Source: a virus. From it: a DNA stretch of 25,688 nucleotides. The first letter of the stretch is position 1; every line of letters starts with the position of its first letter. Shown here piece by piece: positions 2,079 to 24,605 of the stretch. The DNA is taken from the IMG/VR virus record IMGVR_UViG_3300032315_000913, positions 1-25,688 of that record. One strand, given 5' to 3'. The translations under genes were made by a program, and so were the position numbers. The notes beneath the pieces are model-generated. The model was not told where the DNA came from, did no database searches, and saw nothing but the letters and a program-made list of their open reading frames with translations.

Positions 2079-5000
2079 TTATTTACTTAATCCAAGTATT
2101 AAAGGTGTTACTGTATTTAACAAACTTTGATTGAATGATCTTCCAGAAATAGTACCATTTATCTGATTAATAACAATATCATCACCAATTCTGAAGTTTC
2201 CTGCTTGGTCAGTACTGGTATAAACAATTAACCCACCATTAGTCATTACAATTTCATTCTCTTGATTTACAACACCACCCAAAGATGGTTTTGCTTTGAA
2301 AATATCATTACCAGAACCAACCCATTCGAATGAATGTGATGATGTTATTTGTAAACTTATTCTACTAAAATAAACCGTTGTTCCTGATCCGACAGTATTA
2401 TTTAGATTAGTATTGAGAATAATAGTAGAAATTCCGGCACTTGGTAATGATGCACTTTCAATAGTATAATAAATTGGTTCTAATACAGCAGTAGCAGCTG
2501 CACCAGCACCGCCACCACCAGCAAATCCTACAGAAAAAGGACTAGATAAACGATATTGACTTCCAACACTAATTACATCAACAGATGTTACTTTGCCATT
2601 TTCAATATTTGAAATAGCTTCCGCAGTAATACCATCAGGTCCGGTAGGAGATGAAATAGTTACTAATGGAGGACTCGTATATCCACTACCTCCATTTGTA
2701 ACATTTATTTGAGAAACATTATAATATAGTTCACCAAAATACAATACTTGCCCGTCATATGGACGATAAGAACCAATATTACTTACAACTATCGTATCTT
2801 GTTCTATAGGAGATTCTGATAAAACTTCACCAGTATAACGATAAATTGATTTTGTACCACTATCCCCAATTCCATCCGCAACTAAACCTAATCTACCAAA
2901 TGAAGAGTTTGAGTTTGTAATGTCACATTGACCTCCAGATCCGGTAAAAATTGCAATGTCATTGCAAATTGTGAATATAGAAACTAATTGAGAATATGCT
3001 CCATTAGTTATTGAAACTCCGATTCCACCTTGATTATATTGAGTATATGAATCAACACTCATTGTTCCAGTCACACCAATATCATTTTGATCTCCCGGTT
3101 CAGCATCAAAACCATCAACCTTCATTCCAATACTATTAGGAATAAAATTAGTGCAGTTTCTTACATAAGGACCCTGAGTAATATTTCCAACTCCCTTAGA
3201 GTATGGAGGTAGAACTATACCTCCAGAAACATAAGTATGAGCAATTGTCGATGGACCAACATTTACACTAAACGTATTACCGATTGAAGTTAATACTCTA
3301 AAATCATATCCATTATTTCCTGTTGGATAAATTGTGGTTGTTCCGGCACCACTTAAGCAGGAAAACTGCAAATCTCTTATGGATACAACATCATTAACTT
3401 TTACTTTTATACCGGGTGCGGTAATTGTTGTAATTCCTGTTGTTTTATCGTATGATGCAGTTGTGACACCAATTGAACGATTGACTATGTATCCTCCAGA
3501 GACATAAGTATGTGGTATTGTGGAAATTCCAACATAAAGATCAAATGTTCCATTAGCATTAATTTTTTCTACATAAAACTCATACCCAAGATTTCCTGAG
3601 GGGAATTTTTGAGTTGTTATTCCGGGTCCACCAGAAGAACAAGAGAATAGTAAATCCCGCAATTCTATTATATCATTGTTTTTAACTGAAAATCCTGGTG
3701 CAGTTATAGTAGTTTTGCCAGTGCTTTCCTCATAAACTGCATTTGTAATGCCAATTATTGTCGTAAATCCGATACCAGAATTGCCAGGAAATGTTGTAAC
3801 GATACCGGCAGAGGGTCCTTGGTTAATTATAGTTGTAACTATTCCTATACAAGTGTTAACTGCGGATAAAACATTCGAACAAGAGTTAATGTTGGTGTTA
3901 GAACCAGTTATTGGGTCTGGTTGTATTGAAAGGTCCCTAACCTGACTTTCTATATTTTGATAATTTCCATTCCAGATTACATTATTGATACAAGAATTTG
4001 CAATACCAATCGCATATCTAATAGTATCAATTGTAGCTTGTTTTATACTATATCCATTTGCATCCGTCCCCGTAATGTGTTGAAGAGTATTTCCACTATA
4101 ATAAGATAATCCTGCTCCAACACATTTGGAGTTTCCACCTCTCGTAATGTCGTGACAAACTGCCTTAAAAATATCTTTAATATCATCAGAACAATCAGTG
4201 GGATCTCCAGTTGGAACTATAAATGCCGGATTCTTATAATCGGTGCTTGTTAAATATCCTACTGCTTCTTTTGCAATGAAATCTAAATTTAATCGAATTA
4301 TTCTAGACGCATCAAAATAACGATCTGATGAAACACCTAAAAGTGGTTGTAGTGATACAACTGCTGCACCATTAGACATTTCTTGACCAATAAAACTCAT
4401 ATCTGTAATATGACATCCATTATTCACATAAAATAAATCTCTATCGGGATTTTTTGGTGTTACAATACAATTGCGAAGTTCTGTTCCTTCTACTGATACT
4501 GTTTTGAAAAGGACGATAGGATTATTTTCCAGATAAGTTCCGGGAAAAACTTTAATAGTATCTCCAAATAAAGCAATTGCTGCTGCTGCTTTAATAGTTC
4601 TCTTAGGATAATTTTCTGCCAGACCACTATTACTATCGTTTCCTTTTTGAGAAACATAAATTGTCTTTCCAATTGGACTATATGCATCAATTGTTACAAC
4701 ACCTTTCCCAGAATCTTGAGTTGAAGTTATATCAATACCAATTCCAGGAACAAGTTGAGTGACAATTCCAACTAAATTAACACCACCACCAAAATATGAA
4801 GTAGCAGTTGCCGTACCAACAACTGTTAATGTATTGGAAATAATATTTGTGTTTATACCAAGACTTCCAGATGCTGGAATATATGTTAATTTTTGAGTAG
4901 AAACATATTCGGTACTGATAAATCCCGAAGTTTCTGTTATGAAGGTTGGATATAAAATGTTAGATGAAGTATTATCAATACTAACTTCTGGTGCCTTTCC

Positions 5001-5471
5001 TTGTGTACCCTGAAGACCTTGAAGTCCCTGAAGACCTTGAGTACCTTGAGTGCCTTGAGTTCCCTGAAGACCTTGAGTACCTTGAGTACCTTGGAAATTA
5101 CTTAGGGCTCCCTGAAGACCTTGAGTGCCTTGAGTACCTTGAAGTCCTTGTAGACCCTGTAGACCTTGAGTACCTTGAAGACCTTGTGTACCTTGAAGTC
5201 CTTGGAGGCCCTGAAGTCCTTGTAGACCCTGTAGACCTTGAGTACCCTGAAGTCCTTGAGTACCTTGTGTTCCTTGAGTACCTTGAATACCAGTTGCATA
5301 TGGCAGTTCATTCCAAGGAGTTACACCGTTACCAATTTTAAAATAAGATATTGTAGATATACCAGATATAACATTATCAAGTTCTACACCAAGTTCACCT
5401 TCAGATAGAATTGGATTTATATTAGTCCATTCTACTGAAATTCCCCTTCTAATTTGAATCTGAGTTGCCAT
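2079..5471 (-). CDS. Large collagen-like, beta-helical tail fibre/adhesin (1130 aa)
   Basis: Domains in order are as follows. Residues 1-58 form a phage-fibre N-terminal module (IQIRRG..VEWTNINPILSEGELGVE and FKIGNG). Residues 61-159 are collagen-like GTQ/GLQ triplets with one ALSNFQ interruption. Residues 160-265 are a beta-rich linker. From about 269 comes a DUF1565/pectin-lyase-like beta-helix start (GKTIYVSQKGNDSNSG and YPKRTIKAAA). Residues 572-661 and 666-752 are a tandem duplicated domain ending HTYVSGG. A Gly/Asn-rich beta region follows at 760-890, and a GGSGYTSPPLVTI motif at 927-939. Beta-helix plus collagen rod suits a receptor-binding or polysaccharide-interacting fibre at the baseplate. 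The stop codon is 1 nt before the downstream 117-residue gene, and the ATG shares 1 nt with the upstream gene's stop. Enzymatic activity cannot be claimed. Confidence 0.85.
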   Translation of the reverse strand: MATQIQIRRGISVEWTNINPILSEGELGVELDNVISGISTISYFKIGNGVTPWNELPYATGIQGTQGTQGTQGLQGTQGLQGLQGLQGLQGLQGTQGLQGTQGLQGLQGLQGTQGTQGLQGALSNFQGTQGTQGLQGTQGTQGTQGLQGLQGLQGTQGKAPEVSIDNTSSNILYPTFITETSGFISTEYVSTQKLTYIPASGSLGINTNIISNTLTVVGTATATSYFGGGVNLVGIVTQLVPGIGIDITSTQDSGKGVVTIDAYSPIGKTIYVSQKGNDSNSGLAENYPKRTIKAAAAIALFGDTIKVFPGTYLENNPIVLFKTVSVEGTELRNCIVTPKNPDRDLFYVNNGCHITDMSFIGQEMSNGAAVVSLQPLLGVSSDRYFDASRIIRLNLDFIAKEAVGYLTSTDYKNPAFIVPTGDPTDCSDDIKDIFKAVCHDITRGGNSKCVGAGLSYYSGNTLQHITGTDANGYSIKQATIDTIRYAIGIANSCINNVIWNGNYQNIESQVRDLSIQPDPITGSNTNINSCSNVLSAVNTCIGIVTTIINQGPSAGIVTTFPGNSGIGFTTIIGITNAVYEESTGKTTITAPGFSVKNNDIIELRDLLFSCSSGGPGITTQKFPSGNLGYEFYVEKINANGTFDLYVGISTIPHTYVSGGYIVNRSIGVTTASYDKTTGITTITAPGIKVKVNDVVSIRDLQFSCLSGAGTTTIYPTGNNGYDFRVLTSIGNTFSVNVGPSTIAHTYVSGGIVLPPYSKGVGNITQGPYVRNCTNFIPNSIGMKVDGFDAEPGDQNDIGVTGTMSVDSYTQYNQGGIGVSITNGAYSQLVSIFTICNDIAIFTGSGGQCDITNSNSSFGRLGLVADGIGDSGTKSIYRYTGEVLSESPIEQDTIVVSNIGSYRPYDGQVLYFGELYYNVSQINVTNGGSGYTSPPLVTISSPTGPDGITAEAISNIENGKVTSVDVISVGSQYRLSSPFSVGFAGGGGAGAAATAVLEPIYYTIESASLPSAGISTIILNTNLNNTVGSGTTVYFSRISLQITSSHSFEWVGSGNDIFKAKPSLGGVVNQENEIVMTNGGLIVYTSTDQAGNFRIGDDIVINQINGTISGRSFNQSLLNTVTPLILGLSK
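3216..3758 (-). repeat. Tandem duplicated 87-90-residue domain inside fibre gene
   Basis: The two units (3489-3758 and 3216-3476) encode homologous segments. Both run from IGxTxAxY, through TGxTTITAPG, ND(I/V)(I/V)xIRDLxFSC and a short PxGNxGYxF(Y/R)V stretch, to a shared ending STIxHTYVSGG. The copies differ at many residues, so this is an old protein-level duplication. Confidence 0.8.
4998..5291. repeat. Collagen-like coding repeat, second fibre gene
   Basis: Nine-nt units encode GTQ/GLQ triplets (residues 61-158 of the 1130-residue fibre) and are interrupted once by the ALSNFQ insert. The units and the insert closely match those at 1-423 at the nucleotide level and lie in the same orientation about 4.6 kb away. 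Confidence 0.9.
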
Positions 5472-22092: not shown

Positions 22093-22099
22093 TATTTAG
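22093..22099 (-). promoter_or_regulatory. CTAAATA box before the 80-residue gene
   Basis: The minus strand reads CCCTAAATATTT across the thyX stop codon, 21 nt before the ATG at 22071. It is identical to the structural-gene late boxes but stands before a replication-cluster gene, so it may be chance or may give late expression of phoH and exonuclease. Confidence 0.3.
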
Positions 22100-23832
22100 G
22101 GACTCAACCTCGCACGATGAAGCCTTTTCTCTTCGTAATAACTGAAGATTTCCGGAACCCATTCTCTCATTACTGGAACCATACCCTCACATAATGCCTG
22201 AATTTCTACCTGAGCATCCAACTTTGCTCTTAGGTCTAGAAAGTGTAGTGCGGCACGGAGCGAGAACGAAACCACAAAGTTCTGGCGAATGTTTTGAGGA
22301 AGGTAATCACGAAGATGTTCCTCTGCCATACCACGAGTATTATAACCCTCAGCATACCTCTCAGATGCCGCCAGACAGAACTTTAGTTGCCTTTCGTAGT
22401 CTTCCTTCGTCCATTCGTATTTGTGCCCTTTACGGTCCAAATAGAGACCTTCTGGACGCACATAGAAAACCTCTTCTGGTTTCAGGTCACCAGTCGCAAC
22501 CTTCAATACACGACGACCGGTATAACGCTGAGACTGAACATCAAAAGAAACTCCAACACGGTGAGTTCGTGCCTGAACCATTACATTATGAACAAACCCA
22601 ACACAGTCCAAAGAAATGGCAGGATGCTCTAGACAATTTCCACAAATAACAACCTTACCGTTACGACGAACAATAAGAGCACCGGTAGAAACAGTAGCAC
22701 AGTGAATTTGCCCTTTGTAATTGACCCATTCTTCGATATAAGTTCTTGATCTTGAATTTTGAGATACTTCAACTCTTGGATAAATTCTATCAGTCAGTCT
22801 AAGAATGTATAAATCACTATGATTTGGATTCTCTCGCATTTCAACATTCAAAGTAAATTTTAGATCATTTACAGATGCAATTGCTTGCATTTGATCGGCA
22901 AGGGTTTTAGAAGTGGTGGAATACGCCCAAGTATTTCTACGAGTAGTGCCATCAGAGTTTCTCAAACCATCAAATAAGTTTTGAACTAAATTAGTTTCCA
23001 ATCTCATATAACCATTTGGAATTTTTTTATTACCACCATCGTCTAAGCAATTTTCCCTCATCCATTCTCCTATGTTTGGAAAAGAAACATTATACCTATC
23101 ATTCTCAGTGGTATAAACTTCAATTCCAAGAGAGTCACAAATAGATTTCAAATAATCAATTTTTCTTTGCAATCTTAGATGAAATCTAATAACATTAGTA
23201 CTATAATGTTTATCGCCATCACCAATCCAAAAACCAATCAAAGACCAAAATAAAGGATCTTCAATTGGAGTAGAAAACTCAACTCTTTCATTTTTGGAAA
23301 GATTTCCTGTTGTAATGTACCTGACCGGTTTCCCATACACCTCTTCGGCGGTAACAGCATAACTTTCACTCCAAGATCCATTTTTTTTTCTACTCTGAAC
23401 GATCATACGATGATCTGGACTTACTAGAAAGTCAAGTGCTTGCCCGTAAAGAGAATACATTTTATCATCATAATCCCATCTCTGAACTGCCGATGGTTTT
23501 TCAAATTCAACCACACCACTTTTGATGTTATATGCAGCGAGAACAGTTTCTTTTACGACTTCGTTCCAATAAGTCCATCCGTTTTCAGTTAATACTTCAG
23601 TATCTGAAGAATAACATCCCCAATGTCCTCGTTCATTTGCCAAAAGTCTTTCCACCGCCCATTTGCCACATTCCTTTTCCGCAGGAGGAAACTTGGTATG
23701 AATAGGGTCTTCACTATAATCATTCTTACCTGCCTGATAAACAAGAGTCTGTGGAAGTTGTGTCTGACGAATCATCACAACTTGCATATAACGGTCAAGT
23801 TCAAGAAGGTCTTTTGCTTTAATTGGTTTCAT
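22096..23832 (-). CDS. thyX: FAD-dependent thymidylate synthase ThyX, interrupted by an intein
   Basis: The 578-residue precursor contains two extein parts (1-72 and 400-578), which join to a 251-residue ThyX. The junction sequence is ERGHWG-CLEHPAISL, in the conserved HxxxxEH region. The C-terminal extein has ARTHRVGVSFDVQSQRYTGR (421-440), the flavin/dUMP signature in which the first Arg of RHR is replaced by Thr (THR at 423-425), and ends with the usual helical region. ThyX converts dUMP to dTMP using FADH2 and methylene-tetrahydrofolate, supplying thymidine for phage DNA. Its ATG overlaps the upstream small gene (ATGA), and AAGGA precedes it. The intein is described separately. Splicing is needed for activity because the insert splits the active-site region. 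Confidence 0.93.
   Translation of the reverse strand: MKPIKAKDLLELDRYMQVVMIRQTQLPQTLVYQAGKNDYSEDPIHTKFPPAEKECGKWAVERLLANERGHWGCYSSDTEVLTENGWTYWNEVVKETVLAAYNIKSGVVEFEKPSAVQRWDYDDKMYSLYGQALDFLVSPDHRMIVQSRKKNGSWSESYAVTAEEVYGKPVRYITTGNLSKNERVEFSTPIEDPLFWSLIGFWIGDGDKHYSTNVIRFHLRLQRKIDYLKSICDSLGIEVYTTENDRYNVSFPNIGEWMRENCLDDGGNKKIPNGYMRLETNLVQNLFDGLRNSDGTTRRNTWAYSTTSKTLADQMQAIASVNDLKFTLNVEMRENPNHSDLYILRLTDRIYPRVEVSQNSRSRTYIEEWVNYKGQIHCATVSTGALIVRRNGKVVICGNCLEHPAISLDCVGFVHNVMVQARTHRVGVSFDVQSQRYTGRRVLKVATGDLKPEEVFYVRPEGLYLDRKGHKYEWTKEDYERQLKFCLAASERYAEGYNTRGMAEEHLRDYLPQNIRQNFVVSFSLRAALHFLDLRAKLDAQVEIQALCEGMVPVMREWVPEIFSYYEEKRLHRARLSP
22636..23616 (-). other. Intein with LAGLIDADG homing endonuclease in ThyX (327 aa)
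   Basis: Precursor residues 73-399. Block A is CYSSDTEVLTENGW (Cys73 nucleophile). Block B is FLVSPDHRMIV, with His141 at the TXXH position. The endonuclease motifs are LIGFWIGDGD (198-207, Asp205) and LFDGLRNSDG (286-295, Asp294), the two DOD motifs. Block F is CATVSTGALIVRRNG, and block G is VVICGN, with Asn399 before extein Cys400. The penultimate residue is Gly (398) rather than the usual His. Both DOD acidic residues are intact, so homing could be active. Cyanobacterial ThyX inteins are known to me by recollection, suggesting exchange between phage and host genes. Confidence 0.92.
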
Positions 23833-23993
23833 TTTCCAAATCCTTTTGATGTTTTTGCTTCTAATTCCGCAAGTTCTTCTTTGACAACTCGCAATTGTGA
23901 TTTCATTTGCTTAAGTTCTTCATTAGAATATAAGTGATCTTGCTTAATCAATCTTTCTAGTAGTTTTACAAGTTTTTTTGCTCTTACGGACAT
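23829..23993 (-). CDS. Small coiled-coil protein upstream of thyX (54 aa)
   Basis: Too short for most ORF cut-offs, this gene runs from the ATG at 23993 to a TGA that overlaps the thyX ATG. The sequence (MSVRAKKLVKLLERL to LEAKTSKGFGK) is highly charged, with Leu/Lys heptad-like helices and a C-terminal KGFGK. GAGG lies upstream of the start, and the preceding gene ends 3 nt away. The overlap with thyX indicates translational coupling. The coiled coil suggests a small binding or regulatory protein; no function can be given. Confidence 0.7.
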   Translation of the reverse strand: MSVRAKKLVKLLERLIKQDHLYSNEELKQMKSQLRVVKEELAELEAKTSKGFGK

Positions 23994-23996
23994 CAG

Positions 23997-24140
23997 TTAA
24001 AAAACCTCATCATAGTCAATTTCCTCTGGTTTAATGTCATCATACTTATATTGTGGTATATCAGAATATATCTCTGCCTTGAGAGAATCTAAAAGCAATT
24101 CCATATTCCGAATAATGAGTTTTAATCTTTCAGTATCCAT
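23997..24140 (-). CDS. Small acidic protein, first gene of thyX cluster (47 aa)
   Basis: The frame runs from the ATG at 24140 (MDTERLKLIIRNMELLLDSL) to TAA at 23997. It is a helix followed by an acidic, Tyr-rich tail (YKYDDIKPEEIDYDEVF). It starts directly downstream of the consensus sigma70 promoter at 24162-24190 and is followed after 3 nt by the 54-residue gene. The ribosome site is weak. Small acidic proteins near phage early promoters are often host-interacting, but nothing specific is visible. Confidence 0.65.
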   Translation of the reverse strand: MDTERLKLIIRNMELLLDSLKAEIYSDIPQYKYDDIKPEEIDYDEVF

Positions 24141-24161
24141 TTAGATTGATATTCTGAATTC

Positions 24162-24190
24162 ATTATACAAAAAAAGAGAGGACTTGTCAA
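24162..24190 (-). promoter_or_regulatory. Perfect-consensus sigma70 promoter inside a terminator
   Basis: The minus strand has TTGACA (24190-24185), exactly 17 nt, and TATAAT (24167-24162). The -35 is the loop of the terminator at 24174-24199, and the second stem arm plus U-run form the spacer. Predicted initiation is near 24155, before the 47-residue gene and the thyX cluster. Confidence 0.85.
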
Positions 24191-24199
24191 TCCTCTCTT
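24174..24199 (-). terminator. Rho-independent terminator overlapping promoter
   Basis: The 9-bp perfect stem is AAGAGAGGA / TCCTCTCTT (24199-24191 with 24182-24174), with an 8-nt loop TTGACAAG and a following U-run TTTTT (24173-24169). It ends the transcript from the 24.3-25.7 kb genes. The same bases serve the promoter at 24162-24190. Confidence 0.85.
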
Positions 24200-24254: not shown

Positions 24255-24605
24255 TCACTTTCGCTTTTTCTTTTCGGGTGCTCTGTATCCCCATAGTCTA
24301 GGAGATACTCTTCCGTATCCAAAGTCAATTTTTTGAACCGATCCGGGTCCAAACTTATCATAGTACATATCAAAGATTTTAACTCTAGTTCCACGACATA
24401 AGTCTACATAATTCTCACCATCCACACGATAAAGAATTAGATAAGCATCATTTGGTAGAGAAGGATCTTTTACTTGAGCAAGATTAGTACGTTCAAAAAG
24501 AATTTCACAACCGTAACGAGAAGAAGTTTCTTTTTTTTCTTCTGGAGTCCACTGCATAATTTCTTCCTCTACTACTACAGTTTTACTCACGAACGACCTC
24601 CCCAT
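24255..24605 (-). CDS. Conserved cyanophage-type protein of unknown function (116 aa)
   Basis: This 116-residue protein has a central phrase MQWTPEEKKETSSRYGCEILFERTNLAQV. AYLILYRVDGENYVDLCRGTRVKIFDMYYDKFG and a basic C-terminus (GYRAPEKKKRK) follow. I recognise no enzyme motif; the beta-rich middle and basic tail suggest a small nucleic-acid- or protein-binding module. It overlaps the upstream 191-residue gene by 19 nt and is the last gene before the terminator at 24174. An internal ATG (residue 17, MQWTPEEK) could be the real start, because the first 16 residues lie entirely within the overlap region. Role unknown. Confidence 0.65.
   Translation of the reverse strand: MGRSFVSKTVVVEEEIMQWTPEEKKETSSRYGCEILFERTNLAQVKDPSLPNDAYLILYRVDGENYVDLCRGTRVKIFDMYYDKFGPGSVQKIDFGYGRVSPRLWGYRAPEKKKRK

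Follow-up and report, generated by a model that had tools for sequence, protein, structure and literature searches.

A 38-bp element on the minus strand of the window (the whole stretch of 25,688 nucleotides analysed here) very probably serves as a compact bifunctional operon boundary, combining a terminator for a variable upstream module with a SigA promoter for a conserved thyX module. The -35 hexamer lies in the loop of the terminator hairpin, and the -10 hexamer directly follows the U-tract. Both signals are conserved among relatives with compensatory changes in the stem, the -35 hexamer and the extended -10 motif replace one another among orthologs, and the arrangement recurs at other loci. 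The preliminary description had assigned a terminator and a sigma70 promoter to one shared element ahead of the thyX cluster, and the relatives, which keep both, bear this out.

Anatomy of the Element

The minus strand from 24205 to 24160 reads GTTTTC AAGAGAGGA TTGACAAG TCCTCTCTT TTTTTG TATAAT, exactly the hairpin, U-run, and TATAAT described earlier, so that 38 bp on one strand hold both the stop and the start signals. The terminator hairpin AAGAGAGGA-TTGACAAG-TCCTCTCTT (24174–24199) is supported by the sequence, a terminator scan, and folding, as well as by the re-pairing of ortholog stems. Nucleotides 24199–24191 pair with 24182–24174 in a perfect 9-bp stem, with TTGACAAG as the loop between them; on folding, additional T-A and T-G pairs extend this to 11 pairs with a GACA tetraloop, and the RNA hairpin has a folding energy of -15.7 kcal/mol (z = -4.0). 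Seven Ts follow at 24175–24169, giving the stable hairpin and T-run of an intrinsic terminator, and transcripts of the upstream operon are predicted to end approximately here. Within the 20 kb scanned, this hairpin ranks first among terminator-like sites, and termination may be partial because the stem contains just four G-C pairs. At the site itself, there was no Rfam match at the gathering threshold.

The -35 hexamer TTGACA occupies positions 24185–24190 within the hairpin loop, and the -10 hexamer TATAAT lies at 24162–24167, directly after the U-tract. The two are exactly 17 nt apart, within the 16–18 nt of a sigma70/SigA promoter, and the promoter scan returned a 12/12 match, the only one in the 20 kb scanned; the promoter had thus rightly been called perfect. 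The stem had also been described as the promoter spacer, which holds for its 3' arm, since this arm and the U-tract form the spacer, and does not hold for the stem as a whole. Judging from the position of the -10 hexamer, transcription would start near 24155 and produce a short 5' leader (24141–24155). In Markov-1 random sequence, 0.027 occurrences of a perfect TTGACA-N17-TATAAT would be expected per window, and the 22-nt hairpin is present in one copy in the window, with 0 expected.

Gene Neighbourhood

The window is a fragment of a T4-like cyanophage, and its nearest named relatives are T4-like cyanophages. The element is located in a 114-bp gap separating two minus-strand genes (24605–24255 and 24140–23997). 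The upstream gene (24255–24605, 116 aa, phrog_485) is the predicted target of termination. On the downstream side, the first gene (23997–24140, 47 aa) belongs to phrog_878, to which no function is assigned; the second (23829–23993, 54 aa) is phrog_6449-like; and the third (22096–23832) is thyX, encoding a flavin-dependent thymidylate synthase that carries an intein-like insertion, all on the minus strand. Further minus-strand genes lie beyond thyX, among them a PhoH-like gene and one for a gp32-like single-strand binding protein.

The intein-like insertion in ThyX covers approximately residues 72–400 and matches a ribonucleotide reductase family, with LAGLIDADG_3 slightly below the cut-off; ThyX of the isolate S-SRM01 is far shorter and has no such insertion. 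Elsewhere in the window, minus-strand genes at 1–1719 and 2079–5471 contain long collagen-like GTQGLQG repeats and encode probable tail or fibre proteins.

Comparison of orthologous loci indicates that the element marks the edge of a variable region. Upstream of the element, 123 of 406 ortholog pairs are similar, compared with 390 of 406 downstream, a contrast that is exaggerated by the shorter upstream stretches. Freshwater relatives have an extra module inserted between phrog_485 and the nested element; it comprises a terminator-promoter of its own, small peptide genes, and a leader matching the Rfam glutamine riboswitch RF01739 (L052, 3496–3599; L057, 2771–2826; L059, 3496–3600). The nested element of these relatives is nearly unchanged and still adjoins phrog_878 on its upstream side; the window phage has no riboswitch module. 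The element thus travels with the downstream module, which it would insulate from whatever lies on the upstream side.

Conservation at the Orthologous Site

Orthologous sites were collected from IMG/VR loci encoding the phrog_878 protein, which were retrieved using a three-protein alignment; the set comprises 63 distinct upstream sequences, grouped into 30 clusters for statistics. A hairpin with U-tract and -10, whose loop holds TTGA or a variant of it, is kept in approximately 58 of the 63 distinct sequences. Four lack the element (L393, L416, L422, and L425), and L440 was anchored only spuriously. The stems themselves are diverse, as in GAGAGGA/TCCTCTC, GAGACCT/AGGTCTC, GGGAGAGT/ACTCTCCC, and AGAGGGTT/AACCCTCT, and they are still complementary, with a mean of 6.57 of 8 Watson–Crick pairs over the 30 clusters. 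When 5' arms were shuffled among sites, the mean fell to 4.97 of 8, with a maximum of 5.53 in 2000 shuffles; this comparison was used instead of the fixed-register paired fraction, which is not informative here, the 5' arms being rich in purines and the 3' arms in pyrimidines.

In the isolate S-SRM01, the same place carries GGAGGG-TTGATT-CCCTCC-TTTTTTTATGA-TAAAAT, where TTTTTTTATGA is T7-ATGA; when TAAAAT and a longer gap were used in a pattern scan, one contig matched. In S-SKS1, the hairpin and TATAAT are kept, the loop is GCAA, and the -35 has been lost. Relatives that keep the stem and lose TTGACA or TATAAT had been named earlier as counter-evidence. Among the 30 clusters, 29 keep a -10 matching at least 5/6 positions, 28 the 17-nt spacer, and 23 the TTGA in the loop, and a weak -35 is nearly always paired with an extended -10. 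Fourteen clusters combine a -35 of at least 5/6 with the absence of TGn, fourteen combine a weaker -35 with its presence, and there is one exception of each kind. Both traits switch approximately 15 times on the tree of the downstream genes, which is a quick tree with one long branch (L424), and exchange of phage cassettes could contribute to the switching. For independent pairs on this tree, 10–11 of 12 show opposite changes and none a change in the same direction (p ~0.001).

An extended -10 relieves the need for a -35 in sigma70 promoters, so the trade-off is the expected mark of selection on promoter activity. The replacement is as expected of a working promoter, and initiation at the site is predicted on this basis. 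The trade-off is found only among orthologs: across all 82 cyanophage terminators followed by a -10, TGn and -35 quality show no anticorrelation (p = 0.54). Distant relatives keep the design at the same place despite the changed hairpin sequence, and the nested overlap, judged by this comparison, is selected and no accident. Chance overlap is ruled out by the rarity of the pattern, the permutations described below, and the conservation in orthologs with re-paired stems.

Occurrence in Other Phages and Genomes

The comparison set comprised 11 cyanophage genomes with 261 strong terminators, and T4, RB49, and KVP40 with 125 terminators; a site was counted as nested when a promoter of at least 10/12 lay nearby and its -35 started between positions -4 and +3 relative to the start of the loop. 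Twenty-six of 38 promoter-linked terminators in cyanophages are nested (approximately 10% of strong terminators), whereas none of the 17 in T4, RB49, and KVP40 is (Fisher p = 8e-7). The largest group in the latter three phages (9/17) has the -35 starting 28–31 nt after the loop start, in tandem beyond the U-tract. Permuting the cyanophage loops or the downstream sequence reduces the number of nested sites from 26 to 9.8 or 7.2, respectively (p ≤ 0.001); among the 180 permutations of its letters, TTGACA is the one most over-represented in cyanophage terminator loops. A -10 starts 3–15 nt after the beginning of the U-tract in 82 of the 261 cyanophage terminators, with a peak at 10–11; loop hexamers matching TTGACA in at least 5/6 positions occur in 16 of these 82 and in 7 of the 179 others (p = 9e-5).

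In exact-pattern samples, among the matches listed, 13 of 76 in IMG/VR and 3 of 115 in bacterial genomes were nested (Fisher p = 7e-4), and shuffles gave 0.5–0.7 nested sites. Those viral contigs that were checked are similar to cyanophages and other T4-like phages of marine origin, except for Lactococcus phage WRP3 (KM677185), which has the -35 in the terminator loop at two sites (in L101 and L112). WRP3 is an unrelated phage with an unrelated host; the nested design is convergent there. Nesting is frequent in cyanophages, persists through complete stem turnover, and is also present in a Lactococcus phage, and it is therefore a repeatable solution for compact genomes.

Cultured Synechococcus phages that carry the nested element include S-SRM01 (186422, 13412), S-SKS1, and S-SM2 (167152). 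Several further arrangements were observed. A second conserved nested site occurs in S-SRM01 (179338), in the 234-kb relative, contig L076 (42393), and in S-SKS1 (61595); it consists of GGGGGCTTGACAAGTCCCC or a near variant, a U-tract, the -10 TAGACT, and then the conserved AGGTTTGTC. Just past the phrog_485 gene in L071, L072, and L073, a TATAAT -10 is centred in the palindrome GAGACAGATATTATAATATTTGTCTC. Approximately one-third of strong cyanophage terminators have a -10-like hexamer right after the U-tract, mostly with no recognisable -35, and there may be a -10-driven class of terminator-promoters in cyanophages.

Proposed Mechanism and Alternatives

Polymerase arriving from the upstream genes (phrog_461 and phrog_485) would synthesise the hairpin and U-tract and release its RNA at approximately 24169–24174. 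Host SigA (sigma70-type) holoenzyme would bind the -35 at 24190–24185 and the -10 at 24167–24162, and initiation near 24155 would lead to transcription of phrog_878, phrog_6449, and thyX. In this model, a loop of approximately 6 nt would hold the hexamer, the 3' arm (7–9 bp) and the U-tract (7–8 nt) would make up the spacer, and the -10 would come next; because arm and tract total 17 nt, the loop hexamer is at the right distance from the -10. The footprints of a terminating and an initiating polymerase overlap, and mutual exclusion of the two is thus predicted. The downstream operon is probably of the middle class, by analogy with another cyanophage. Middle genes of cyanophage Syn9 are reportedly driven by host-like promoters, a finding attributed to Doron in 2016. 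In cyanophage Ma-LMM01, ThyX is reported to belong to the middle genes and to have SigA-type promoters, and T4-like middle promoters as well as motA and/or asiA are reported to be missing from marine T4-like cyanophages (PMC5780444).

Packing of stop and start together is the simplest account of these features. Observations that count against a bifunctional boundary are the mere four G-C pairs of the stem, the S-SKS1 site with its GCAA loop and no -35, the many cyanophage terminators with a -10 and no recognisable -35, and the 4 of 63 orthologs with no element. More elaborate readings can be considered. The terminating polymerase might stay over the -35 and -10, pick up or keep sigma, and restart, with upstream flux feeding initiation. 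Sigma is usually lost during elongation, compact packing already explains the geometry, and Straboviridae have the tandem form instead, all of which make such a restart unlikely, even though the terminator–promoter distance in nesting is the shortest possible. It has been reported that E. coli polymerase mostly remains on the DNA after intrinsic termination in vitro, diffuses, and re-initiates nearby (PMC6978380; PMC11347151), which favours the restart, and this evidence comes from E. coli and not from cyanobacterial polymerase. The broader proposal that marine T4-like phages hand polymerases on from one operon to the next by way of 40-bp stop-and-restart elements, without their leaving the DNA, is distinctly unlikely; the nested element offers a ready natural substrate for testing polymerase hand-over from a terminator to an overlapping promoter. 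Overlapping footprints on 38 bp, which the geometry dictates, could also set the order of expression, with upstream traffic occluding the promoter early and the initiating holoenzyme later blocking incoming complexes; the element stays the same in orthologs whose upstream modules are quite unlike one another, and such a switch is quite improbable.

The element might also be retained chiefly as a short homology for module swapping, as proposed for the PeSL (promoter-early stem-loop) cassettes of T4-like phages. The variable upstream and conserved downstream sides and the riboswitch module inserted just upstream in freshwater relatives speak for this; since the stems within one genome have no sequence in common between loci, the homology would be very short, and single copies in the window and in the 234-kb relative further leave such a use unlikely. 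The persistence of TTGA in the loop even beside TGn could reflect RNA recognition of a hairpin UUGA kept for that purpose and not as a -35. This is very improbable, as it fits less well with the enrichment of TTGACA-like loops where a -10 follows and with the -35/TGn trade-off, which is a signature of a DNA promoter. Least credible is extrusion of a DNA cruciform or hairpin at the promoter, which had been raised in the preliminary description: the strand folds as single-stranded DNA (-7.3 kcal/mol), and nothing else favours it. The arms are short, conservation gives no pointer to extrusion, and ordinary RNA termination accounts for the stem, so that only an RNA hairpin is implied.

Comparison with Known Systems

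Composite terminator-promoter cassettes are already known in T4-like phages. PeSL cassettes, said to have been described by Arbiol in 2010 and Comeau in 2014, combine a strong sigma70-like promoter with a stem-loop terminator between genes, at the boundaries of variable modules. The present element has the same composite parts and likewise lies at a junction of shuffled modules. The geometry differs: in the RB49 sites measured directly here, the composites are tandem, with the -35 starting 29–32 nt after the 5' arm, past the U-tract, whereas here it is inside the loop, and the element is not a PeSL of the RB49 tandem type. Unlike PeSLs, it has no repeated homologous copies (one in the window, and the other nested stems of the 234-kb relative differ), and it is probably middle, by analogy, while PeSLs are early. 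With an ordinary intrinsic (Rho-independent) terminator it shares the stem, short loop, and U-tract, but here the loop doubles as a promoter element. With the host SigA/sigma70 promoter, including the extended -10 form, it shares TTGACA-N17-TATAAT, and orthologs swap the consensus -35 for TGn; it differs from an ordinary SigA promoter in that the spacer is the terminator 3' arm and U-tract.

The open-licence papers searched contained no account of a -35 placed inside a terminator loop; the loop-nested -35 is apparently new as far as could be found, and an earlier description may exist. For annotators, a hairpin with a TTGACA loop may mark a transcription start in addition to a stop. RB49 (AY343333) has approximately 20 promoters in which a hairpin, TTGACAGGGGATCGGTGATCCCCTATAAT, fills the -35/-10 spacer with no U-tract, for example on the minus strand at 115005–115033, 121708–121736, and 158941–158969.
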